From contig DVGI01000033.1 in the NCBI GenBank assembly GCA_018712805.1, positions 124,001 through 188,000 of the forward strand: 64,000 bases of DNA. The letters are read 5' to 3'. The notes below the pieces were generated by a model. The model was not told the origin of the DNA, ran no database searches, and saw only the letters and a list, made by a program, of their open reading frames with translations. Origin of the DNA: Candidatus Fimenecus excrementavium. Its GTDB lineage: Bacteria > Bacillota > Clostridia > Oscillospirales > Acutalibacteraceae. The position numbers and the translations under genes are program-made. Shown in pieces: positions 2,948 through 15,502 of this stretch (the stretch's first letter is position 1; each line of letters begins with the position of its first letter).

Positions 2948-2974
2948 ATATTGATACTGATTCGGAGGGATAGC

Positions 2975-4354
2975 ATGCCGCAAAAGGATTTTGACACAGT
3001 GCGCAAAACCTATCAGACATTTTGCTATAACGGATATTCCATTATAAAAGAAAAAGACGGTGTCCGTCTGTCGTTCGATTTTTCGATTGACGGGCTTTGT
3101 TCATTTCGCCCCGAAACGGTGGTTTACACCGACAACTTGCAGGTTTTAAACGCGCCGGACGCGCCCGCGGCAAAGGCGATTGTGTTTTGCCTCGGCATGG
3201 TGGAGCTTATCAGCTATTGGAAAGCCGCCTGCCCGCCGCGCGTGCTCATAAAATGCGGGTATCTGAGCGAACAGGACATTGCCTGGTGGAAAAAGCTTTA
3301 TTTCGGCGGGCTTTCGGAATTTTTCTATCGAAACGGCATTGCGGCAGACGAAAACACCTTTATGGAAATTGTCTGCGCCGAAGAAAAGCCCGAAGAACAG
3401 CCTTTTGCTTTTCAAAGCGCGGGGCTTAATCTCATTCCGGTGGGCGGCGGCAAAGACAGCTGTGTCACCACCGAGCTTTTGCGCCGCTTTCACGACAAAA
3501 ACCGCTTTTTCACCGTCAACGACCAGCCCGCGCGCACCGATACCGTGCTCGCCGGCGGCTACACGGAAAACGAAATCGTCAGAACGCACCGCACAATTGA
3601 CCCGATGCTTCTGGAACTCAACCGGCAGGGCTTTTTCAACGGGCACACGCCGTTTTCGGCGATTGTGGCGTTCCTTTCCTATTACTGCGCGTATCTCATC
3701 GGTGCCGAAAACATTGTGCTTTCCAACGAATCGAGCGCAAATGAGTCGAACATTTCCGGGACCGAAGTCAACCACCAGTATTCGAAATCCTTTGCGTTTG
3801 AGCAGGATTTTGCCGACTACTGTGTGCGCAACTTGATTCCCGACATTCATTATTTCAGTCTTTTGCGCCCGTTTTCGGAACTGCAAATCGCAAAACAGTT
3901 TGCGGCGTTCGGGCAATATCACGAATCGTTCCGCAGCTGTAACCGCGGCAGCAAGCAAAACATTTGGTGCGCGAAATGCGCGAAATGCCTTTTTGTGTTT
4001 TCGATTTTGTCGCCGTTTATGCCGTATGACAAGCTTTGCAGGTTATTCGGCAGCGATATGTTAAACGACGCGACATTGCTTTCGGATTTTGACGGACTTG
4101 TAGGTTTCAGCCCCGTCAAGCCGTTTGAGTGCGTCGGCACGGTGGACGAAATTGTGTTCGCCTTACAATGCACCGCGCAGAAATTTCTGCAAACCGGCCG
4201 CCCGCTTCCTGTTTTGCTTGCCCATTTTGTCGATCGCGCGGGCGCAACCCCGCAAGGCGACCTTTTAAAAGCCTATAACGACGAAAACCATGTGCCGGCG
4301 GCGTTCCTGCCTGCGGTCAAGGAGATGTATGCGTATGTATCCGCCGATTGTTGA
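2975..4354 (+). CDS. murL: MurL: UDP-MurNAc-L-Ala-L-Glu epimerase
   Basis: A 459-residue cytoplasmic protein. Its best landmark is a PP-loop-like ATP site, IPVGGGKDS, near residues 153-161, and further on the dense cysteine motif CAKCAKC near residues 332-338. This combination matches MurL, first shown in Xanthomonas, which uses ATP to invert the terminal L-Glu of UDP-MurNAc-L-Ala-L-Glu to D-Glu. The gene directly after it is a MurD-type ligase, which is the neighbour expected for MurL (MurD2 adds L-Glu, MurL epimerises it). The ATG at 2975 is preceded by GGAGGG with 5 bases between. The family call is from memory of the motif and the context; the chemistry here is inferred. Confidence 0.75.
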   Translation: MPQKDFDTVRKTYQTFCYNGYSIIKEKDGVRLSFDFSIDGLCSFRPETVVYTDNLQVLNAPDAPAAKAIVFCLGMVELISYWKAACPPRVLIKCGYLSEQDIAWWKKLYFGGLSEFFYRNGIAADENTFMEIVCAEEKPEEQPFAFQSAGLNLIPVGGGKDSCVTTELLRRFHDKNRFFTVNDQPARTDTVLAGGYTENEIVRTHRTIDPMLLELNRQGFFNGHTPFSAIVAFLSYYCAYLIGAENIVLSNESSANESNISGTEVNHQYSKSFAFEQDFADYCVRNLIPDIHYFSLLRPFSELQIAKQFAAFGQYHESFRSCNRGSKQNIWCAKCAKCLFVFSILSPFMPYDKLCRLFGSDMLNDATLLSDFDGLVGFSPVKPFECVGTVDEIVFALQCTAQKFLQTGRPLPVLLAHFVDRAGATPQGDLLKAYNDENHVPAAFLPAVKEMYAYVSADC

Positions 4355-5648
4355 CTATTTAAAAGATAAATCCGTTCTGCTCGTCGGTTTCGGGCGCGAG
4401 GGGCAGTCGTCTTATCAATATATTCGAAGCCACTTGCCCGAAAAAAAACTCACGATTGCCGACAAAAATCCGCTTTCGGTAGATGACCCGCTGGTCACGC
4501 TGATTTGCGGGGACAATTATTTAGACACCGTCAACCAATATGACGTCGTGCTCAAAAGCCCCGGCATTTCGTTTAAAACAGTCGAAATCGAACCCGGCAC
4601 GGAAGTGACCTGCCAGGTGGATTTGTTTTTGCGCTTTGCCCCCTGCCGCAAAGTCGGCGTGACCGGCTCGAAAGGCAAGACGACGACCTCCACGCTTACT
4701 TACGAAATGCTCAAAGCCGCAAACAAAGATTGCAGACTGATAGGCAACATCGGCGTGCCTGTCTTTTCGTCGCTGGAGGGGCTCACGAAAGACACCATTG
4801 CGGTAATCGAAATGTCGTCGCACCAGCTGGAATTCACCCACACGTCGCCCGAAGTCGCCGTGCTCACGAACCTTTACGAAGAACATTTGGAGCATTACAA
4901 AGGCGGTTTCAAAGGCTACGCGGCGGCAAAATTCCACATTGCCCAATACCAAAAGCCGGACGACCTGTTCCTTTACAACGCGACGCAGGGTTTCCCCGAA
5001 ATTATGGATTTTTCAGCGGTGCACTCGAAAAAAGTCGGCATTTCCGCCGACGCGCCCCTGCCGTTTGAAATTCAAAACGAGCACCTCGCCGGCATTCACA
5101 ACCGGCAGGACGTTTTGTTCGCCATGGCGGCGGCAAAGCATTTCGGTGCAACCGACAAAGACTGTGAACAGGCGGTGCACAATTACAAAGGCATTGAACA
5201 CCGCATGGAAAAGGTCGGCACATTTCGCGGGATTACCTTTTATAACGACTGTATCGCGACCATTCCGCACGCGGTGCTGTGCGCGGTGGACGCGCTGAAA
5301 ACGGTCGACACGCTGATTGTCGGCGGCAAAGACCGGGGGCTTCATTACGGCTATTTCGAAAAGGCGCTGGAAAAGTCCGATATTACCAATATCATCGGCA
5401 CGCCCGACACCGGCATTTCCATTGTGCGCGCCATGAAAAAGGCGGGCACGTCCAAAAACGCGGTAGAAGCCCGCGACCTCCCGGAAGCCGTACGCCTTGC
5501 CTACAAACTGACGGCGAAGGGCAAAATCTGCCTGCTGTCGCCGGCGGCGTCAAGCTACAACGTCTATAAAAACTTTGAAGAAAAAGGCAAACACTATAAA
5601 GCGTTGGTGCGTGAATACGGTGCGGAAAGTTCGGAGGACAAGAAATGA
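4335..5648 (+). CDS. murD: MurD-type Mur ligase, probably L-Glu adding (MurD2)
   Basis: A Mur ligase of about 437 residues that extends UDP-MurNAc-L-Ala by one glutamate in the cytoplasm. The N-terminal Rossmann-like part begins [13 protein letters not shown]. The ATP loop [11 protein letters not shown], then IGNIGVP and EMSSHQLE, are standard MurD motifs, and the C-terminal domain is complete. The gene overlaps the end of murL by 20 bases. Two starts are possible after AAGGAG (4319-4324): 4335 (10-base spacing) and 4329 (4-base spacing). Because it is coupled to murL it is more likely the L-Glu-specific MurD2 type than ordinary D-Glu ligase. That specificity is inferred from context, not from a visible residue. 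Confidence 0.85.
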
Positions 5649-6364
5649 AAAAAATTGTAACCGCTGTTTTGGTTGTATCACTTCTGTTTCTTTGCAGTTT
5701 GCAGGCGTTCGCCATGCAGATTTTTATATTGACGCCGGAGCACAAGCATATTACTTTGGAAGTGGAGCCGACCGACCGCACCGAAGATGTGCGCGCAAAA
5801 ATCGAAGATAAAACCGGCATTCCGCCGGAACATCAAATTCTGAAGTGGAACGGTATTGAGCTGGAAGACGGCAACACCTTGCAGGATTACAGCATTATAA
5901 AAGATTCCACCTTGATCTTGACCCGCATCGACCGAATCTACCAATACGAAACCCCGCCGGCTTCCAGAACCATTCCCGTGCAAACCATGGTTTCCGACGC
6001 GGACGCTTCGTTCACCCTGACGTTCCCGGCGGAAATCTCAATTCCGTGGGGCACCGAAACGCCGATTTCCGCCAATTATTCGGTGGAAACCACCCTCCTT
6101 TTGGGCACGCATTTGCGCGTGACGGTCGCAAAGTCGAGCGCAGACGCACTGCTTACGAACGACGAAATGCAAGCTGCGGGATTTAGCGGTATTCCGTTTT
6201 CCGAGATTCAAAACGCGACCGTCGACTACCCCACCGCCACGAACGGCACGGTGGCTTCTTCGGGCGTGACGTTCACGATTTCCAAAGACGCGTGGAAAGC
6301 GGTGCCGATTGAAGAGTACTGCTCGACGATTACCTATTCCGCCGAAATCGTGCCGGACGCATAA
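5645..6364 (+). CDS. Exported ubiquitin-like protein with C-terminal extension
   Basis: A 239-residue secreted protein. Residues 1-23 are a signal peptide ending LQAFA, and cleavage there leaves a mature protein that starts MQIF, exactly like eukaryotic ubiquitin. Residues 24-95 align without gaps to ubiquitin 1-72, with 42 identities by my count, including ITLEVEP, AKI-DK-GIPP and LEDG-TL-DY. Lysines equivalent to K11, K29, K33 and K63 are kept. K6, K27 and K48 are not, and the Leu8/Ile44/Val70 patch has become Pro/Lys/Thr. There is no C-terminal Gly-Gly; the chain continues into about 140 residues that look like an unidentified beta-sandwich. GGAGG sits 7 bases upstream. The start overlaps the murD stop as ATGA, so the gene is translationally coupled to cell-wall synthesis genes. 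Function unknown. Confidence 0.9.
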
Positions 6365-6365
6365 C

Positions 6366-7265
6366 TTACATAATCGAACAAAGCACCAAAAGTTCCTCCA
6401 CGGCGGCATATAACGCCTCAAAATTCGCCGTGATCGGTTCGTGCGGCAGGTCGCGCACAGCGATTTCGAACGCAGGTTTCCCGGTGCTTTCGGCAAACCA
6501 CTCGGGGAAACACCCGCGCTTTATGTAGTCTTCTTTGCGCGCTAAGGTGTAATCCCCGGCGGCAGCCAAAATTTTCGCCATCATCGGCGCGTCCTTTTGC
6601 GCTTCAGTCGAGTCTCCGGCCGCCCAAAACACGCGTCCGCCGAACCCGTTGAGCAGCACCGCGTGCTGAAACTGCGCACGATTACAAAGCCTTGCAACGG
6701 CTTGCGTTTCCGCTTCGCTTTCGGGTGCGGGACCGGCGTAAGCCACCGGCGACGGGCGGTTGACGGAGCGTTCTGTATTCGGCAAAACCGAGACATGGCG
6801 GAAATTGAAGTTATGGGTAATATCGACCCCGCGGGCGTTGGCGCACCAGGTGCTGTAATCTTCGACGCCGGCGCGTTTGACAAGCCCCGCGTAACAGCCC
6901 GCGCCCAAAGCGCCGTACCGGCGGATTTCATAGGCGTCGGGGTTTACGCAAGGCACCACGGTGATTTTCCGCCCGCGCAACGTGTTTCGGAATTTCACCG
7001 CGCGCAATGGCACATCGTTTTGAAGGCTTTTGCAAAGCCGCTCAAAAAAGCGATATAAAAGCAAGGGCTGAACGCTGTCTTTTCCGGAAAGGCCCGCTAA
7101 AAGCAGGACGTGCTCCTCGCCTTTTCCGACCGACAGCGAAAAAATCCCGTGTTTCGTGACACTTCTGCCGAGCACGGCGGTTTCTGCAAAGGGATATTGC
7201 GCCGCGAGCGACGCGAAAAGCTTTTGCGACAGCGCAAACGTAAACGGCGCATATTGCACAAGCAC
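6366..7265 (-). CDS. M14-family carboxypeptidase homologue lacking zinc ligands
   Basis: About 299 residues with the M14 fold of the gamma-D-glutamyl-diaminopimelate peptidase type. The scaffold motifs are present: VNPDAYE, NARGVDITHNF, and PESEAETQAV. The metal site is not. The usual HGxE is LSGKDS (His to Ser, Glu to Asp), and the usual LHSQGEEIYW is LNGFGGRVFW (second His to Asn). The late catalytic Glu (FEIAV) remains. It is therefore probably a non-catalytic binding protein, perhaps for peptidoglycan peptides. There is no signal peptide. The GTG at 7265 was chosen because AGAAGG lies 8 bases upstream; a TTG at 7271 is possible. It converges on the ubiquitin-like gene with one base between the stop codons. 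Confidence 0.75.
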   Translation of the reverse strand: MLVQYAPFTFALSQKLFASLAAQYPFAETAVLGRSVTKHGIFSLSVGKGEEHVLLLAGLSGKDSVQPLLLYRFFERLCKSLQNDVPLRAVKFRNTLRGRKITVVPCVNPDAYEIRRYGALGAGCYAGLVKRAGVEDYSTWCANARGVDITHNFNFRHVSVLPNTERSVNRPSPVAYAGPAPESEAETQAVARLCNRAQFQHAVLLNGFGGRVFWAAGDSTEAQKDAPMMAKILAAAGDYTLARKEDYIKRGCFPEWFAESTGKPAFEIAVRDLPHEPITANFEALYAAVEELLVLCSIM

Positions 7266-7295
7266 AGGCAAGACCTTCTTTCTGCAATCTATCTT

Positions 7296-7906: not shown

Positions 7907-8454
7907 CACTTGTATTGGCTTCTAACTCGCCGCGGCGCGCGCAGCTCCTTTTTGACGCGGGCTACACCTTTGTGCGCCGGGCTTCCGACATCAACGAGTC
8001 CTTACCCGCGGGGCTTCCGCCGGAACAGGCGGTCGAACTGCTCGCCAAGCGCAAAGGCGAGGCGGTCGGGCGGCGCGTGGACGAAGTGCTTCTTTCCGCC
8101 GACACCGTGGTTTCTTTGGACGGGCACATTTTAGGCAAGCCCACCGACGCCGAGGACGCCTGCCGGATGCTGCACCTGCTTTCGGGCAAAACCCATGAGG
8201 TTTACACCGGCGTTTACATTCAGGGCGCAAAAGAAAATTTCCTGTTCCACGAGAAAACCGAAGTGACCTTTTTCGAACTCACCGACGAAGAAATTGAAGC
8301 CTATGTGCGCACGGGCGAGCCGATGGACAAAGCCGGCGCTTACGGCATTCAGGGCAAGGGCGCGCTGTTCGTCGAGCGCATCAACGGCGACTATTTAAAC
8401 GTGGTCGGTCTGCCGCTTGCCAAAACCGTGAAATATCTCAAAGAGGTGTTATAA
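7903..8454 (+). CDS. maf: Maf nucleoside triphosphate pyrophosphatase
   Basis: A 183-residue Maf/YhdE-type enzyme that removes pyrophosphate from dTTP, UTP or modified NTPs, linked in Bacillus to septum control and nucleotide-pool cleaning. It begins LVLASNSPRRAQLL, the family signature, and carries SADTVV and DKAGAYGIQGKGA. The ATG overlaps the Nudix stop codon (ATGA), and the TAA is followed at once by the ATG of the patatin gene, so all three are translationally linked. Two nucleotide-cleaning enzymes in tandem suggest a shared housekeeping role. Confidence 0.92.
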   Translation: MTLVLASNSPRRAQLLFDAGYTFVRRASDINESLPAGLPPEQAVELLAKRKGEAVGRRVDEVLLSADTVVSLDGHILGKPTDAEDACRMLHLLSGKTHEVYTGVYIQGAKENFLFHEKTEVTFFELTDEEIEAYVRTGEPMDKAGAYGIQGKGALFVERINGDYLNVVGLPLAKTVKYLKEVL

Positions 8455-9309
8455 ATGAAAACCGGTTTGGTCTTAGAGGGCGGCGGCATGCGCGGAATTT
8501 ACACCGTCGGCGTGCTGGACGTGCTTTTAGACAACAACATCCATTTTGACTATGTCATCGGCGTTTCTGCCGGCGCGGGCAACGGCGCTTCTTACATTTC
8601 CGGTCAGCGCGGCCGCGGCTTTCGCGTGGACACACAATATGTCCACGACAAGCGCTATATCGGCATTGACCCGATTTTGCACAACAAGTCCGTTTTCGGG
8701 TTGGACTTTATTTACGACACAATCCCCCAGGAACTCGACCCCTTTGATTACGACGCGTTTTTCGCCGACAAAAGCGAATTTGTCACCGTTGTGACCGACG
8801 CTGAAACCGGCAAGGCGGTCTATTTCGGCAAAGACAAAATCCACGGCAAGGATTTCACCGTTTTGAAAGCTTCGGCGGCGCTGCCGATGTTTACCCCGCC
8901 GGTGGAGTTTGAGGGGCGGAAATATTTTGACGGCGGCGTGGCGGATTCCATTCCGGTCCAGCACGCGCTCGACGACGGTTGCGACCGGCTGTTGATTGTG
9001 CGGACAAGACCGCGCGACTATGTGAAAAAGCCGGAGCGTATGCGCGCCGCTTACACGCGGATTTTAAAAGACTATCCGAACATGATTGCCGCGCTCGACA
9101 ACCGCTATATCGTCTATAACGAGTCTTTGGCGCTTTGCGACCGCCTTCAAAAAGAGGGACGCGCGGTGGTGATTGCGCCGGAATACGCTTTGCCGATTGA
9201 CAAATTCGGCACAGACAAAGAAAAATTGGAGCACTGCTATTACGAAGGCATGCGCGACTGCAAACACGCGCTCGAAAACATTGAAGCGCTGCTTTCCGAC
9301 AAAGCGTAA
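8455..9309 (+). CDS. Patatin-like phospholipase
   Basis: A 284-residue patatin-family acyl hydrolase. The oxyanion motif LEGGGMRG is at residues 7-14, the nucleophile elbow GVSAG follows near residue 37, and the catalytic Asp is in FDGGV near residue 160, so the Ser-Asp dyad is intact. It lacks a signal peptide and would act on lipids from the cytoplasmic side; its substrate cannot be read from the sequence. The layout resembles the YjjU-type patatins. The gene starts directly after the maf stop and is closed by a strong terminator. Confidence 0.85.
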   Translation: MKTGLVLEGGGMRGIYTVGVLDVLLDNNIHFDYVIGVSAGAGNGASYISGQRGRGFRVDTQYVHDKRYIGIDPILHNKSVFGLDFIYDTIPQELDPFDYDAFFADKSEFVTVVTDAETGKAVYFGKDKIHGKDFTVLKASAALPMFTPPVEFEGRKYFDGGVADSIPVQHALDDGCDRLLIVRTRPRDYVKKPERMRAAYTRILKDYPNMIAALDNRYIVYNESLALCDRLQKEGRAVVIAPEYALPIDKFGTDKEKLEHCYYEGMRDCKHALENIEALLSDKA

Positions 9310-9335
9310 TTTCAAATCTGTATTTTAAAAAAACG

Positions 9336-9372
9336 GACAGCCTGCAAAAAAGCGGGCTGTCTTTTGTTTTTC
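9336..9372 (+). terminator. Terminator of the Nudix-maf-patatin operon
   Basis: GACAGCCTGC (9336-9345) pairs with GCGGGCTGTC (9352-9361), one G-U pair, loop of six A, then TTTTGTTTTT. Confidence 0.9.
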
Positions 9373-9380
9373 AACATTTG

Positions 9381-9409
9381 TTTACTTTTTCCCCGGTTTG
9401 TAGTATACT
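9381..9409 (+). promoter_or_regulatory. Promoter of the GDPD-walJ-rlmH genes
   Basis: TTTACT (9381-9386), 17 bases, TATACT (9404-9409), located 37 bases before the GDPD start and directly after the previous operon's terminator. Confidence 0.65.
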
Positions 9410-9445
9410 ATTGGTCGGAAAAATTTTGTTTCGGGAGGTCATTTT

Positions 9446-10333
9446 ATGGGAAATGCAATGCAAAAAATCGCCATGGCCGGCGTTGCGGCGGTCGCCTCCA
9501 CCGCAATCGGTGGTATCGTTTATCGGCACATGCGTTATAAAAGAATCCCGCCGAAGCCTTTACAGGATTTTCAAAGACTCGTGCCGCAAGCGCCCGAGGG
9601 CGTTCACCTGACCGCGCACCGCGGGCTTTCCGCGCAATATCCCGAAAACACCAAAGAAGCTTTCGTGGCCGGCGGCAAAGCCGGATTTTACGCGCTGGAG
9701 TGCGACACCCATTGCACAACCGACGGCGTTTGGGTGGTGCTTCACGACGGGCAGATTAAAACCATGTTCGAAGGCTCCGGCGACGTGAAAGACTATTCTT
9801 ACCCCGAAATGTTAAAAAAGAAAATGATTAACGGCGCGAACATCGACAAATACCCCGAAGCGCACATCTGCACGTTGCAGGAATATATTGACGTTTGCAA
9901 AACCTACGGCTGCCGGCCGATGATTGAAATTAAGGACCCGCGCACCGAAAAAATGCAGGATTTGTATGGCCTTCTCAAAAAGAACGACATTTTACAAAGC
10001 TGCATTTTGATTTCGTTCCACCTTTCCGACCTGCGCGCGATGCGCAAAATTGACGAGAATTTGGAAATGTGGTATTTGGTCAACTACATTACGAACAAAG
10101 TGATTCGGGAAGCCAAAAAAGCCAATTTGGGCGTGGCGTTTTGTGCGCAATACAACGCCTTGCGCCCCGAATACATCAAAAAAGTGTTGGATAACGGGCT
10201 GACCGCCGCCTGTTGGACGGTGGACGACAAAGACCTGCTTTTGAAAATGCTTGACTGCGGTGTGCGTTACATCACGACCAATTCCATTTTACCGAGCGCC
10301 GCGGCGCTCGCCCAAGCGCAAAGAACCAATTGA
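9446..10333 (+). CDS. Glycerophosphodiester phosphodiesterase
   Basis: A 295-residue GDPD enzyme, expected to split glycerophosphodiesters from phospholipid or teichoic acid breakdown into glycerol-3-phosphate and an alcohol. A hydrophobic stretch at residues 8-27 likely anchors it in the membrane. The catalytic set is intact: AHRGLSAQYPENT (about 52-64), ECDTH, VLHDG and MIEIKD. The TIM-barrel ends with ACWTVDD and YITTNS. GGGAGGT lies 6 bases before the ATG. It is followed 16 bases later by walJ. Confidence 0.9.
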   Translation: MGNAMQKIAMAGVAAVASTAIGGIVYRHMRYKRIPPKPLQDFQRLVPQAPEGVHLTAHRGLSAQYPENTKEAFVAGGKAGFYALECDTHCTTDGVWVVLHDGQIKTMFEGSGDVKDYSYPEMLKKKMINGANIDKYPEAHICTLQEYIDVCKTYGCRPMIEIKDPRTEKMQDLYGLLKKNDILQSCILISFHLSDLRAMRKIDENLEMWYLVNYITNKVIREAKKANLGVAFCAQYNALRPEYIKKVLDNGLTAACWTVDDKDLLLKMLDCGVRYITTNSILPSAAALAQAQRTN

Positions 10334-10349
10334 CCCGGAGATTTTTTAG

Positions 10350-11144
10350 ATGATTAAGTTTTGCCCCCTGTTTTCTTCCAGCAAAGGAAATTCCATTTAT
10401 ATCGGCACGCCGAACGGCGGCGTATTGATTGACGCGGGAAAAAGCTGCCGCCAAATCGAAACCGCGCTTAACAACATCGGTGTTTCGCCCGACAGCATTC
10501 GCGCGATTTTCGTCACGCACGAACATTCCGACCACGTAAGCGGCTTGCGGGTGTTCGCCGGCAAGCACCACCCGCGCGTGTACGCGACCGGCGGCACGCT
10601 TTGCGCATTAGACGAAATGGGTATTTTAGACGGGCGCTTTGATGCATTCGCCTTAGGTCCCGACGGCGCGGAGGTCTGTTCGCTGTTTGTAAAGCCCTTT
10701 AAAACCTCGCACGACAGCCGCGAAAGCTGCGGCTATGTGCTCCACGACGAATCCGGCGAGCGCATCGCCGTTGCGACCGACCTCGGCGTGATGACCGACG
10801 CCGTGCGTGACGCGGTTTCCGGCTGTGAAACGGTTTTAATGGAATCCAACCACGATGTGCGGATGCTCGAAAACAACCCGCAATATCCTTATCCTTTGAA
10901 AAAGCGCATTTTGGGCGCCGGGGGGCACCTTTCCAACGAAGCTTGCGCCGAAGCCGTGTGCGATTTTGTGAAGCACGGCACAAAGCGTGTGTTTTTAGGC
11001 CATTTGAGCGAACAAAACAACCTGCCGGCGCTCGCCTACCGCGTGACGGCGGACGAGCTGCAAAACGCAGGCGCCGAACCGGGCGCGGACTTTACCTTGT
11101 GCGTGGCAAAGCCGATTTGGGACGAAAGGGCGTTTTTGTTTTGA
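10350..11144 (+). CDS. walJ: WalJ/YycJ-type MBL-fold metallohydrolase
   Basis: A 264-residue metallo-beta-lactamase-fold protein. The metal motif THEHSDH is at about residues 52-58, preceded by VLIDAGKS and followed by ATDLG and GHLSEQNN. In Bacillus the homologue YycJ/WalJ sits at the end of the wal two-component locus, next to rlmH, and is thought to be a nuclease involved in DNA repair and coordination of cell division. Here too rlmH follows directly, but no walRK genes are present in this stretch. The stop overlaps the rlmH TTG start. Confidence 0.85.
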   Translation: MIKFCPLFSSSKGNSIYIGTPNGGVLIDAGKSCRQIETALNNIGVSPDSIRAIFVTHEHSDHVSGLRVFAGKHHPRVYATGGTLCALDEMGILDGRFDAFALGPDGAEVCSLFVKPFKTSHDSRESCGYVLHDESGERIAVATDLGVMTDAVRDAVSGCETVLMESNHDVRMLENNPQYPYPLKKRILGAGGHLSNEACAEAVCDFVKHGTKRVFLGHLSEQNNLPALAYRVTADELQNAGAEPGADFTLCVAKPIWDERAFLF

Positions 11145-11623
11145 TTTCTGTGACGGTGCTTGCCCTCGGCAAGCTGAAAGAACCTTATATGCGCCAATTT
11201 TGTGCGGAATATGAAAAGCGCTTGTCCGCCTTTTGCAAGCTGAACTTGGTGGAACTTACCCCCGTTCGCCTGCCGGACAATCCTTCGAAAAGCGAAATTG
11301 CCGCTGCGCTCAAAAAAGAAGCGGTGCTTCTGCGCGCGAAAATCCCGCAGGGGGCTTATGTGCTTTCGATGTGCATTGAGGGAAAGCAAATGAGCAGTCC
11401 GGAATTTAGTCAAAAATTAACTTCTCTGGCAATCAGCGGCAGCAGCCATGTGGTTTTCATTCTCGGCAGCTCTTTCGGGCTGGACGACGAGATAAAAAAA
11501 CTTTCCGACTGTCGGTTTTCGATGTCGGAAATGACGTTTCCCCACCAAATGGCGCGCGTGATGCTTTTAGAACAGCTTTACCGCGCATTTCAAATTGCAA
11601 ACGGCGGCAAATACCACAAATAG
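11141..11623 (+). CDS. rlmH: RlmH 23S rRNA pseudouridine-1915 methyltransferase
   Basis: A 160-residue SPOUT-class methyltransferase, a normal length for RlmH. It methylates N3 of pseudouridine 1915 in helix 69 of 23S rRNA on the assembled ribosome. Visible signatures are ALGKLKEPYM at the N-terminus, FILGSSFGL for the SAM knot, and the C-terminal MTFPHQMARVMLLEQLYRA. The TTG start at 11141 matches the family N-terminus and overlaps the walJ stop in a TTGA arrangement. The stop TAG is followed immediately by a copy of the dispersed repeat. Confidence 0.92.
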   Translation: MISVTVLALGKLKEPYMRQFCAEYEKRLSAFCKLNLVELTPVRLPDNPSKSEIAAALKKEAVLLRAKIPQGAYVLSMCIEGKQMSSPEFSQKLTSLAISGSSHVVFILGSSFGLDDEIKKLSDCRFSMSEMTFPHQMARVMLLEQLYRAFQIANGGKYHK

Positions 11624-11656
11624 GTGCCGCCGGGCACACCGACTTCGAGCAGGTAG
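11624..11656 (+). repeat. Repeat module P, copy 1
   Basis: GTGCCGCCGGGCAC (a 5-bp stem with GCCG loop) followed by a conserved tail ending CGAGCAGGTAG. The same module occurs at 46834 and 47268, and inverted at 50730. This copy abuts the rlmH stop codon with no gap. Confidence 0.75.
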
Positions 11657-11717
11657 TCCGATATTATTTTTTATAATTTTGCCCGGTATCATCTTTGCAG
11701 CCATATTTTCCCCAACT

Positions 11718-11832
11718 GGCGCGTGCCGACGCGCGGCGAATCGAGACTTTCACTTGGCACTAAAAACAACCGTGTCCTCCCGACATCGACTTTGTTATAA
11801 CTTTGCGGGCGAGGGTGGAACCTCGCCCCTAC
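11718..11832 (+). repeat. Repeat modules D and B, copy 1
   Basis: A hairpin (GCGCGT against a near-complement at 11719-11736) leads into a roughly 70-base conserved segment containing TCCTCCCGACATCGAC, which recurs at 46734 and 49793. It ends in a B hairpin, GGGCGAGG (11807-11814) with CCTCGCCC (11821-11828), loop GTGGAA, then CTAC. Confidence 0.75.
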
Positions 11833-11859
11833 AACAGCAAATGCACCAATATTTAAAGT

Positions 11860-12052
11860 TTCGTTCACCTTTTCAAAGGTGGTGGAATCCAAAGGCAAAG
11901 CCTTTGGTCGCCCTGCGCACAGGGCGAAATTCTTTCCCTGTAAAAAAGCGCAGGAGGGGAGACAAAACAGTCCGGCGGACTGTTTTGTCGTGGGGAACCC
12001 TCGCCGGGGGTTCCCCGGCGCGTGCCAACGCGCGGTGAATTCGCGCAGGTAG
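11860..12052 (+). repeat. Repeat module A, copy 1 (chain of hairpins)
   Basis: About 190 bases made almost wholly of consecutive perfect inverted repeats: 11866-11881, 11889-11907 (8-bp stem), 11909-11926 (7-bp stem), 11961-11989 (13-bp stem), 11992-12016 (9-bp stem) and 12018-12033. Copies 2 (12156) and 3 (47105) have the same stems in the same order. It has no credible reading frame of its own. Confidence 0.85.
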
Positions 12053-12069
12053 TGTGATAGTATTTTTAC

Positions 12070-12132
12070 ATTTTTTGCCCGGTATCCTCTTCAATGCAAT
12101 CATTCGGGCGAGGGTGGAACCTCGCTCTTACA
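12070..12132 (+). repeat. Repeat module B, copy 2
   Basis: A segment with TGCCCGGTATC followed by the hairpin GGGCGAGG (12106-12113) with CCTCGCTC (12120-12127). One arm position has decayed relative to copies 1 and 3. Confidence 0.65.
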
Positions 12133-12155
12133 ACGGTAAATCCACCAACATTTAA

Positions 12156-12352
12156 AGTTTCGTCCACCTTTTCAAAGGTGGTGGAATCCAAAGGCAAAGC
12201 CTTTGGTCGCCCTGCGCACAGGGCGAAATTCTTTCCCTGTAAAAAGCGCAGGAAGGGAGACAAAACAGTCCGGCGGACTGTTTTGACGTGGGGAACCCTC
12301 GCCGGGGGTTCCCCGGCGCGTGCCAACGCGTGGTGAATTCACGCAGACAGTG
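12156..12352 (+). repeat. Repeat module A, copy 2
   Basis: Nearly identical to the copy at 11860. The last small stem has changed from CGCG/CGCG to CGTG/CACG, a paired change that keeps it folded. Confidence 0.85.
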
Positions 12353-12369
12353 CACACAAGGCGAAAGTT

Positions 12370-12482
12370 CCTTTGCCCGGTATCCTCTTCGATGCAATCA
12401 TTCGGGCGAGGGTGGAACCTCGCCCCTACAAAAATATTGTTCGTTTTGTACACCGTAGGGACAGCCCTTGCGCCTGTCCGGC
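12370..12482 (+). repeat. Repeat modules B (copy 3) and C (copy 1)
   Basis: The TGCCCGGTATC segment, the B hairpin (GGGCGAGG at 12404-12411 with CCTCGCCC at 12418-12425, then CTAC), and a C hairpin GGACAG (12459-12464) with CTGTCC (12474-12479) introduced by GTAG. C recurs near 46990 and 49922. The whole interval 11624-12523 holds no supportable gene. Confidence 0.7.
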
Positions 12483-12523
12483 AAAAAATTCCGCGGTGTA
12501 AAGCAAAATTTTTACATATAAGC

Positions 12524-12565
12524 ACACAAAAACGCCCCGGTTTAAAACCGGAGCGTTTCTTTTTA
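12524..12565 (-). terminator. Terminator of the aroE/K-aroQ genes
   Basis: A 14-bp near-perfect palindrome (12530-12558, one G-U pair on the minus strand) flanked by TTTTTGTG on the minus strand and CTTTTTATA on the plus strand. It probably works in both directions and so also separates the repeat block from aroQ. Confidence 0.75.
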
Positions 12566-12608
12566 TATTGCAATAGTTAAATTTTGTCTATTTTGTTTTT
12601 TGCTGTAA

Positions 12609-13037
12609 TTACCGCGCCGCCAAATATTCGAGCGCTTTTTTATAGCCGTCAAAGCCGAGGCCGATAAAATGCGCTTCGCACGCCTGCCCGGCGTAGGAAA
12701 TCTGGCGGAACGCTTCGCGGGTGCTGATATCGGAAATGTGGACTTCAACCGCGGGGATTGCCACCGCCTTGAGCGCATCCAAAATGGCAACGCTTGTGTG
12801 GGTGTAAGCCGCGGGGTTAATCACAATTCCGTCAAACTGACCGTAGGCCGCCTGAATTTCATCAACGATGTCGCCCTCGTGGTTCGACTGGAAGCACTCC
12901 ACCTGACAGTCGAGTTCTTCCGCCCACTCGCCTATCAGGGCAAGCAGCACCTCATAGGTCTGGGCGCCGTAGATTTCCGGCTCGCGAATGCCCAGCATAT
13001 TGATATTCGGCCCGTTGATTACCAAAATATTTTTCAT
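12609..13037 (-). CDS. aroQ: Type II 3-dehydroquinate dehydratase
   Basis: A 142-residue type II dehydroquinase catalysing the third step of the shikimate pathway, 3-dehydroquinate to 3-dehydroshikimate, as a cytoplasmic dodecamer. It begins ILVINGPNINMLGIREPEIYG, with the catalytic Tyr in IYG, and has QSNHEGDIVD, INPAAYTHTS (substrate loop) and EVHISDISTRE. Its ATG overlaps the stop of the aroE-aroK gene by 4 bases, so two or three successive shikimate steps are translationally linked. Confidence 0.95.
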   Translation of the reverse strand: MKNILVINGPNINMLGIREPEIYGAQTYEVLLALIGEWAEELDCQVECFQSNHEGDIVDEIQAAYGQFDGIVINPAAYTHTSVAILDALKAVAIPAVEVHISDISTREAFRQISYAGQACEAHFIGLGFDGYKKALEYLAAR

Positions 13038-14254
13038 TGCAATTCCTCCAAAATCCGGCGAACGACAGCTTGCACGCTGCCGTCGGCGGCTATTTCCTTG
13101 TCACAAACGCTGCGGTACAGCGGCAGGCGCACTTCGTACATTTCAGAAAGCGCGGTCGCCTTAGAAAGCGGGCGCCCTTCGACCGGTAGTGCGGAAACGT
13201 CGCGGTTTATAAAGAACACGATGCTGTTTTGCCGCAAAATATCGGCGTTTTCAGGGACGGTGACCGCCCCGCCGCCGGTGGCGATAACCGTGCCGCTTTG
13301 CTTGCAAAGGCTTTCTAACACCTCGGTTTCCTTTTGCCGGAACACCGCTTCGCCGCACGCTTCAATCCACGCTTCGGCGCTTTTGCCGGTGCGTTTTAAA
13401 ATTTCCTCATCCGCGTCAAAAAACGGGCGGTTTAATTGCTCCGCGAGCGCTTTCCCGACGGTGGTTTTGCCGCAGCCGGGCATGCCGACCAGTACAATAT
13501 TTTGCATTTCGGTCGAAAGTTTTTTGAAAATGCGGTCGGTTTCGCTGTCGGGAATGTCGTGCCCCAAAAACAGCTCCGCGGCGCGCTTCCCCTGCGCGAC
13601 GAGCATCAAAAGCCCGGAATATGCCGGAATACCCAGTCGCTCGGCGTCTAAAATCAGCTTGGTCTTCTGCGGGTTATAGACAATGTCCAACACGCCGGAA
13701 AGATTCGGAAATTCCGAAAGCGACAGCGGCGCTTTTAAGTTGTTCGGGTACATGCCCACAGGGGTTGTATTGACAATCAAATCCGCGTCGGCGTGGCGGG
13801 AAAGATTTTGATAATTGTTTTCGCCGCTTCTTGAAATGAACACGACTTCACGCGCGCCGAGGTCGGAAAGCACGGCGGAAATCGGCAGCGACGCGCCGCC
13901 CGTGCCGAGCACCAGCGCTTTTTTGCCTTTTACCTGAAATCCGCTTTTTTGGACAAGGCACAAAAAGCCGTCGTAATCGGTATTGTCGCCGTAAAGGCCG
14001 CCGTCTTCTTTGACGATAATCGTATTGACCGCGCCGATGCGCTTGGCGTTGTCGGAAATGCCGGAAAGATAGGGGAGCACGTCTTTTTTATAGGGAATGG
14101 TCACGTTGATTCCGCCGAATTCCCGTTTTTTCAAAAACGCTTCGAGGTCTTGGGGCTCGACTTCAAACAGCCGATATTCGTAATCGCCCAAAAGGGCGTG
14201 AATTTGCGGGGAATAGCTGTGCCTTAAGGTTCTGCCGAGCAAACCATATACCAT
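13034..14254 (-). CDS. Fused shikimate dehydrogenase-shikimate kinase (AroE-AroK)
   Basis: A 406-residue bifunctional enzyme. Residues 1 to about 245 are AroE: SYSPQIH, the substrate site GINVTIPYK, the NADP loop LGTGGAS and NTTPVGMYP. Residues about 250-406 are AroK: the P-loop GMPGCGKTT, FDADEEI and ATGGGAV, with a lid Arg in VEGRPLS. It would convert dehydroshikimate to shikimate and then to shikimate-3-phosphate. Because aroQ follows with a 4-base overlap, three steps are made from two adjacent genes. The ATG has AGGTGA four bases upstream. The AroE half is shorter than free-standing AroE at its C-terminus. Confidence 0.93.
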   Translation of the reverse strand: MVYGLLGRTLRHSYSPQIHALLGDYEYRLFEVEPQDLEAFLKKREFGGINVTIPYKKDVLPYLSGISDNAKRIGAVNTIIVKEDGGLYGDNTDYDGFLCLVQKSGFQVKGKKALVLGTGGASLPISAVLSDLGAREVVFISRSGENNYQNLSRHADADLIVNTTPVGMYPNNLKAPLSLSEFPNLSGVLDIVYNPQKTKLILDAERLGIPAYSGLLMLVAQGKRAAELFLGHDIPDSETDRIFKKLSTEMQNIVLVGMPGCGKTTVGKALAEQLNRPFFDADEEILKRTGKSAEAWIEACGEAVFRQKETEVLESLCKQSGTVIATGGGAVTVPENADILRQNSIVFFINRDVSALPVEGRPLSKATALSEMYEVRLPLYRSVCDKEIAADGSVQAVVRRILEELQ

Positions 14255-14292
14255 AGTGTCACCTGTTTACAATAAAATACACAGTAAAAAAG

Positions 14293-14330
14293 AAACTGCT
14301 TTTGTATGATACCACAAAAGCAGTTTTTTT
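14293..14330 (-). terminator. Terminator after dnaJ
   Basis: AAACTGCTTTTGT (14293-14305) pairs with ACAAAAGCAGTTT (14314-14326) around 8 bases. On the minus strand a TTTCTTTTTT tract follows, 12 bases past the dnaJ stop; on the plus strand seven T follow. Confidence 0.85.
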
Positions 14331-14338
14331 CCAATGGG

Positions 14339-15502
14339 TTATCGTTTCTTTTTGCCGAAAAAGCCTTTTTTGTCGTCGGCGTTGCCGAGATGTGCTGTTT
14401 CGTTGCCGAGCGCCTCGTCAAGTTCACGCAGAAGCTGTTTCTGTCTGTCGTTGAGGTTACGCGGCACGTCGACAATCACGCGCACCAACTCATCGCCGCG
14501 CCCGCGGTTGTTAAGGCTTTGAATACCTTTGCCTTTGAGTTTAAACACATCGCCGGACTGCGTGCCTGCCGGGACATTGTATTGCACTTTGCCGTCAAGC
14601 GTCGGCACCTGTAACGCGCAGCCGAGCGCCGCCGCGGCAAAGCTAATATGCATTTCAACCCAGACGTTATAGCCGTCGCGCTCGAAAATCGGGTGCGGAC
14701 GGACGTTGATTGCCACGCGGAGATCACCCGCAGGGCCGCCGTTTACGCCTTTATTGCCCTGCCCGCGCGCGTTGATAATCTGACGGTCGTCGATACCGGC
14801 CGGGATTTTCACCGTAATTTTCACCGGCTTGCGCACACGACCCGCGCCGTGACATTTCTTACAGGGATTTTCGATAATCGTGCCTCTGCCGCCGCAGCGG
14901 GAGCACGCTTTTTGCGTTTGAATCACGCCGAACGGCGTTCTCTGTTGGGAAGTGACCTGACCGCGGCCGTTGCATTCAGGACAGGTTTTCGGAGAAGAGC
15001 CCGGCGCAGCGCCGCTGCCGTGGCACTCGTCGCAGACTTCAATCCGGCTGAACTGCACTTCGCGTTCGCAGCCTTTCGCCGCCTCTTCAAAAGAGATGGT
15101 CACGCTTGTCTGCGTGTCGCTGCCGCGCTGGGGGGCGTTGGGATTGCTGCTGCCGCCGCCGAACCCGCCGAATCCGCCGCCGAAAATATTGCTGAAAATA
15201 TCGCCGAGGTCAAAATCAAAGCCCTGCCCGTTAAAGCCGCCGCCGTAACCGGCGCCACCCGCCCCGTAGTTCGGGTCCACGCCCGCGTGGCCGAAGCGGT
15301 CATATTTCGCCTTTTTCTCCGCGTCGGACAAAACCTCATACGCTTCGTTCGCCTCTTTGAATTTCTCTTCCGCTTCCTTGTCCCCGGGGTTTAAGTCGGG
15401 GTGATATTTCTTGGCGAGCTTGCGGTAGGCTTTTTTGATTTCATCCTCCGACGCATTTTTATCGACGCCGAGGACTTCATAATAATCTCGTTTGTCTGCC
15501 AT
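14339..15502 (-). CDS. dnaJ: Chaperone DnaJ (Hsp40)
   Basis: A full-length 387-residue co-chaperone that delivers unfolded clients to DnaK and stimulates its ATPase. The J-domain (1-70) has the HPD motif in [11 protein letters not shown] Gly/Phe-rich linker spans about 75-115. Four zinc-finger repeats CxxCxGxG follow from CDECHGSG to CKKCHGAG, then the C-terminal substrate domain. Last gene of the HrcA-controlled operon, 71 bases after dnaK. Confidence 0.97.

Follow-up and report, generated by a model that had tools for sequence, protein, structure and literature searches.

A ubiquitin domain joined to a putative surface-subunit domain in a predicted exported protein encoded downstream of murD in Candidatus Fimenecus excrementavium

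The window analysed here is a whole stretch of 64,000 nucleotides from Candidatus Fimenecus excrementavium (Clostridia; assembly GCA_018712805.1, contig DVGI01000033.1, positions 124,001 to 188,000). Features at the locus were assigned as follows (window coordinates).

2951..4354, plus strand: neighbouring gene for a MurL-like protein (UDP-MurNAc-L-Ala-L-Glu epimerase-like); NCBIfam NF041275, E 6.4e-82, 275 bits versus a cut-off of 700
4338..5648, plus strand: neighbouring gene murD (UDP-N-acetylmuramoyl-L-alanine--D-glutamate ligase family); NCBIfam TIGR01087, E 1.2e-81, above cut-off
5645..5648, plus strand: ATGA, overlap of the gene start with the murD stop; from ORF coordinates
5645..6364, plus strand: whole gene, fusion of a predicted exported ubiquitin with a surface-subunit domain, 239 aa; from ORF, Pfam, alignment and same-site orthologues of four other congeners
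5645..5713, plus strand: signal-peptide-like leader, residues 1-23, ending in AFA before Met24; hydrophobic core, A at -3/-1, cleavage predicted
5714..5926, plus strand: ubiquitin domain, residues 24-94 (ubiquitin 1-71); Pfam E 5.8e-15, 42 identities, model and Foldseek
5927..5953, plus strand: linker without Gly-Gly, residues 95-103; from ORF translation and ubiquitin alignment
5954..6361, plus strand: C-terminal domain (residues 104-239), assigned to the small exported subunit family by tree and best paralogue (E 3.3e-16, 38% identity); pattern YTVTIPA...IPWG
6366..7271, minus strand: convergent neighbouring gene, M14 zinc carboxypeptidase-like; Pfam PF00246, E 1.7e-14

The open reading frame comprises 239 codons (5645-6364, plus strand; ATG at 5645, stop at 6362-6364), and the coordinates given in an earlier sequence-only reading were correct. 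The 4-base ATGA overlap suggests that translation of the fusion gene is coupled to that of murD. Upstream (2951-5648), a MurL-like epimerase gene adjoins murD in this Clostridia genome, the MurL model being that of Xanthomonadales; the genome may use a divergent MurL route of peptidoglycan synthesis, with 275 bits lying far under the cut-off of 700. Elsewhere in the window (approximately 11600-12580) and on a second contig (L092:2849-3337), overlapping ORFs with recurring peptide stretches were seen by eye in the translations, which suggests dispersed repeat elements common to two contigs of this genome.

The sequence-only reading had aligned the protein to ubiquitin 1-72 without gaps and counted 42 identities. 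This count was exact, and all 42 fall within ubiquitin 1-70. Shuffling of the same residues 20,000 times gave a mean of 5.3 and a maximum of 16 identities. Residues 26-92 matched Pfam PF00240 (E 5.8e-15, 55.3 bits versus a cut-off of 25.4), and this was the single PF00240 match of the whole genome. In a phmmer search of the PDB, residues 24-93 matched ubiquitins; the best chain having one matched stretch only (5xy3_m) reached E 1.9e-24, and the single-ubiquitin chains among the matches listed ranged from approximately 7e-21 to 4e-19. Structure prediction, proposed earlier as a check, modelled residues 24-94 as a ubiquitin fold; with AlphaFold2 (7 sequences), block means of pLDDT across residues 21-90 were 88-95. 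Ubiquitin and its variants made up the best 50 Foldseek matches of the model of the ubiquitin part (E 2e-8 to 1.5e-7).

The leader, as read from the sequence, has a hydrophobic core and alanines at -3 and -1. Leader and alignment together support a secreted ubiquitin homologue whose mature N-terminus would lie in ubiquitin register (MQIF from Met24), as had been claimed. Alignment to ubiquitin also bore out the absence of the interaction patch (L8P, I44K, H68I, V70T) and of the C-terminal diglycine of a conjugating ubiquitin (Gly75-Gly76 lost). E2 enzymes (PF00179) had zero matches in the same genome, and 14 control genomes were equally silent. The ubiquitin part is under purifying selection, with a dN/dS of 0.24 in both G012-G020 and G019-G020, the sole pairs with usable dS (saturated or zero in all others). 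Its GC3 of 0.62, versus 0.66 for murD, gave no sign of recent import. An alignment of ubiquitins (A2) contained 11 invariant columns, which we take to be structural.

The extra C-terminal part, previously put at 140 residues, measured about 136-145 aa. When this domain was searched alone, 20 of 39 genus genomes (own included) matched at 4 to 11 places each, and a domain private to this protein was rejected on this count. Its paralogues in the same genome lie in a row at G000:C15:24558-27499 and comprise five small frames plus one terminus of a 1,782-aa frame (best E 3.3e-16, 38% identity). The fusion gene itself lies at murD on another contig (C18), outside this cluster with the large ORF (contig C15). 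The small cluster proteins consist of a leader and the domain and are mostly 147-183 aa long; they were named the YTVTIPA small exported subunit family in this analysis. Cluster ORFs from 15 congeners matched the C-terminal domain profile in 83 of 225 cases, and an A-x-A within residues 15-36 was present in 66 of these 83. Within locus L092 (G000:C15:17000-36000; approximately 8099-15444), a 365-aa protein whose tail is hydrophobic comes after the small exported proteins and the 1,782-aa exported protein.

Database searches with these proteins yielded little. No Pfam or NCBIfam family describes the small exported cluster proteins or matches the 1,782-aa protein, and a Pfam scan of 13 C-terminal domain family members gave none above cut-off (best DUF6805, E 0.0041, in 2 of 13). 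The only PDB match of the domain profile was the pilus protein CsuE (E 0.16, not significant), and the viral collection held no relatives of the domain. Models of the C-terminal domain had a pLDDT below 50 with and without an alignment. No anchor motif was seen in the window protein. The cluster was present in 6 of 6 genomes with the fusion or its remnant versus 14 of 33 others, these being related species and not independent. The cluster probably represents a surface system not described before, present in roughly half of the genus. Among the 91 sequences of a C-terminal domain tree, the five fusions of the genus formed one clade (UFBoot 100) nested among cluster subunits (82). Ubiquitin was therefore joined to a copy of a cluster subunit once in this genus.

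The ubiquitin domain was found in 5 of 39 genus genomes (own included), always directly downstream of murD. A search for the same two-domain protein in related Clostridia, as had been suggested, thus yielded four further congeners with an orthologue at this murD site. The description of the gene as part of a cell-wall operon was upheld as to the 4-base overlap with murD, but the murD site is an insertion site in one subclade, lost in the sister species. A conserved cell-wall operon member was rejected, because the gene stands downstream of murD only in carrier species. In the sister species (G003; closest by MurD, 93% identity), murD is followed immediately by the M14 gene, without a fusion. 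The gene is also missing in G007, G014, G016 and G031, and nearly all of it is removed in G446. There, a short frame after murD has a leader-like start that passes directly into the end of the C-terminal domain; this scar reflects an internal deletion that took out the ubiquitin. In a MurD tree (30 of the 39 genomes, midpoint root), the five carriers and the scar all fell into one subclade of 11 species, 6 of which have no gene or the scar only. Two carriers look irregular at the start: a run of A breaks the frame of G019 close to its beginning, and the leader of G025 lacks a preceding ATG. Decay of the gene in parts of the clade is possible, as is sequencing error.

For exported ubiquitins in other bacteria, a scan across 84,980 species genomes found seven such proteins at six loci. 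Within the class, 5 of 391 genomes (own included) passed the PF00240 cut-off; their six genes all encode a leader ahead of the ubiquitin. Within the phylum, 4 of 398 genomes passed (own included); one of them (G615) has a true exported ubiquitin, and two were not ubiquitin when read. Control genomes gave no matches in these scans. One further family was searched, and the single match among its 9 genomes was the one already known. Three plasmid records contained an exported ubiquitin (Ruminococcus albus 7 and two Pseudoalteromonas). Phage origin was rejected, since 50,697 phage records had no match for the window or the R. albus domain. The viral collection contained 13 loci, 7 with a leader-like start and 6 without (eukaryote-like or other, by eye). 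A role as a defence system was likewise rejected, with zero PADLOC matches for the three proteins tried. Weak PF00240 matches (L006, L007, L018, L019, L082, L083, L084) were read individually and judged not to be ubiquitin, including L082 and L083, which pass the cut-off.

Across the 22 exported ubiquitins compared, I44 was kept in 18 and H68 in 18, and Gly-Gly in 2 (L015/G217, L106). The loss of the I44 patch noted earlier is thus true of the window copy and not general. Several relatives have the full I44 patch and at least 90% identity to human ubiquitin. The residue just before ubiquitin Met1 was alanine in 21 of 21 tabulated proteins. Pseudoalteromonas L098 was left out of table and tree, L105, L107 and L109 were dropped as near copies, and L110 and L111 were not used. 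The parts following the ubiquitin were assigned as follows.

S-layer domains (SLH): L012, L091/G217, L096/G615
Autotransporter barrel: L101; L100 just below the Pfam cut-off
IPTL-CTERM: L104
YDG and MBG repeats with a visible PKTGD and hydrophobic tail (LPXTG-like): L011; sortase family E 0.0046, below cut-off

A Pfam anchor above cut-off was found in none of L008 (open at a contig end), L013, L097 and L100, and domain scans recognised nothing after the ubiquitin in L008, L013 and R. albus. The ubiquitin-autotransporter fusions (L101:1640-3085; L109:4890-6335, nearly identical; L100:4878-5819) lie on contigs of the viral collection. The exported ubiquitins with IPTL-CTERM (L104:2322-2768, L105:1985-2431, L107:1800-2246) are near-identical and lie on contigs of the viral collection, beside genes that look phage-like by eye. 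At L010:5971-7112 (same genes in G067:C46), two tandem exported ubiquitins with overlapping stop and start end in LRLRNY and LRLRGY instead of LRLRGG. A complete LRLRGG follows the N-terminal ubiquitin of an S-layer protein (L091:6409-8385, G217); going by this motif, deubiquitinases might release its ubiquitin.

A ubiquitin tree was calculated from 26 domains, with 70-odd sites and little power; L009 was truncated at ubiquitin residue 61, the point of a frame change. A clade (UFBoot 99) united the window with its four congeners, L008, L009, G114 and G615; shared changes included H12 (8 of 9) and Q57 (9 of 9). The window protein belongs to a Firmicutes lineage of exported ubiquitins. Its nearest known relatives are bacterial, so that the previous proposal of acquisition from a eukaryotic host may hold for the remote origin of the lineage. 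The window ubiquitin stood apart from its congeners in the tree (56 versus 75), but its C-terminal domain grouped with theirs (100), and one fusion with a fast-changing ubiquitin was therefore taken.

A second case was present on plasmid pRUMAL01 of R. albus 7. WP_013483628.1 (246 aa, annotated 'ubiquitin family protein') consists, like the window protein, of a leader, ubiquitin from Met1 and a YTVTIPA-family domain. Its gene lies among genes of small exported YTVTIPA-family proteins on this megaplasmid, not at a murD site. Its ubiquitin is 88% identical to human ubiquitin, keeps the I44 patch, unlike that of the window, and belongs to another lineage (with L011 and L012, UFBoot 91). Its C-terminal domain grouped with R. 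albus's own small exported subunits (UFBoot 100 and 99). Since both the ubiquitin lineage and the subunit are separate, the architecture has at least two origins. By eye, the R. albus locus and the cluster of the window genome seem to have in common a partner gene with an NPxxNPCYF motif.

We consider it probable that the gene encodes a two-domain exported protein in which a non-conjugating ubiquitin forms the mature N-terminus of a surface subunit and serves as a binding or spacer head. The protein would be exported by Sec and cleaved by signal peptidase I, leaving ubiquitin Met1 first. Through its C-terminal domain it would sit at the cell surface or join cluster products in an extracellular assembly, and the ubiquitin at the free N-terminus would act as a stable, non-conjugating protein-binding or spacer head. 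Conjugation or cleavage like that of cellular ubiquitin is impossible, because Gly-Gly is absent and the domain continues into the next. The module would be kept folded while its surface changes, which would fit such a head. That the fusion was made once in the genus and a second time, from a different ubiquitin, in R. albus speaks for selection to put ubiquitin on such subunits. The candidate partner might lie on the bacterium's own surface or be another microbe, a protist or a host protein. For the window species a redirected binding surface is favoured, since the usual I44 patch is gone.

The alternative nearest in weight to this display at the surface is an antibacterial action like that of BfUbb of Bacteroides fragilis, in which the protein would diffuse and harm related strains, with the C-terminal domain used for delivery or receptor binding. 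BfUbb is likewise exported, starts in register when mature and lacks the terminal glycine (PMC5705921, PMC3352274). Patchy presence among close relatives, down to absence in a sister with 93% identical MurD, is often seen in competition genes. BfUbb is single-domain, however, whereas the ubiquitin here and in its relatives is nearly always part of a larger protein, and the S-layer or outer-membrane anchors of several relatives fit a tethered head better than a diffusing toxin. We regard a diffusible toxin as unlikely. A ubiquitin part without any partner, retained after a chance fusion as a stable N-terminal cap and now being lost, would agree with the 6 of 11 subclade species that have no gene or the scar only and with the irregular starts in G019 and G025. 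It would also agree with the window copy being the fastest-changing and devoid of the I44 patch, and with the presumably structural nature of the invariant columns in A2. A dN/dS well under 1 in the ubiquitin part, the independent second fusion in R. albus and the recurrence on several anchor types speak against such a cap, which we hold to be improbable.

Little credence was given to a decoy or mimic function directed against the ubiquitin system of protists or a eukaryotic host. The full I44 patch and at least 90% identity to human ubiquitin in several relatives would suit this role, and secreted ubiquitin effectors of plant-parasitic nematodes are mentioned in one article (PMC5705921). The window copy, though, lacks L8, I44, H68, V70 and Gly-Gly, and nothing in the window points to injection into eukaryotic cells; no donor or host was identified. 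Eukaryotic contamination or chance similarity, the former already judged unlikely in the sequence-only reading, was rejected as having a negligible probability: the gene overlaps murD by 4 bases and recurs at the same site in four other genomes, and shuffled sequences gave at most 16 identities.

The preferred reading, a ubiquitin head displayed on a surface subunit, bears on a protein that is taken as a hallmark of eukaryotes and known as the tag protein of animals and plants. Described here are a clade-supported lineage of exported bacterial ubiquitins and two fusions, made independently, to a single class of surface subunit, beside which other exported ubiquitins sit on classical anchors. 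Their occurrence on quite different surface anchors suggests that bacteria reused ubiquitin repeatedly as an outward-facing module. Whether this amounts to repeated, independent capture for surface display, with ubiquitin exported at its own Met1 and welded to the anchor or subunit of each lineage, seems to us evenly balanced; the cases counted are subunit arrays (twice), S-layer proteins, LPXTG-like wall proteins, autotransporter barrels and IPTL-CTERM. Ubiquitin outside the cell would then be a recurrent recognition device and not the oddity of one Bacteroides strain. If the ubiquitin is indeed displayed, its binding targets outside cells become testable, as does whether bacterial competition or contact with protists or hosts drives the display. 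It would also show how the most conserved eukaryotic protein changes once free of the constraint of conjugation. R. albus 7, a named deposited genome, carries the sister case open to experiment.

A literature search that covered few subscription journals returned no article describing a bacterial surface protein with a fused ubiquitin, and the available excerpts of PMC1949818 and PMC11354881 contain no description of an exported, fused class of bacterial ubiquitins. BfUbb is described in two articles as a bacterial ubiquitin homologue that is exported and patchy among strains (PMC3352274, PMC5705921), with a mature start in ubiquitin register and without the terminal glycine (PMC5705921; PMC3352274). 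In the articles consulted it is the only bacterial ubiquitin studied, and it is the closest studied protein, a single domain that antagonises other strains. Like BfUbb as described there, the window protein has a predicted export leader, a putative mature start at ubiquitin Met1, no terminal diglycine and a patchy distribution. Unlike BfUbb as described there, it has a 136-aa second domain, is encoded by a gene that follows murD and lacks the I44 patch; the difference in architecture pointed out in the sequence-only reading is supported. The target of BfUbb in sensitive strains was reportedly described in later work. Eukaryotic ubiquitin has the same fold and 42 of 70 residues in common with the window domain, which in contrast lacks the diglycine and the I44 patch, is predicted to be exported and is fused. 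In the exported ubiquitins L012, L091/G217, L096/G615, L101 and L104, a leader likewise directly precedes ubiquitin Met1 at the mature N-terminus, and known C-terminal surface anchors stand where the window protein has its subunit domain.
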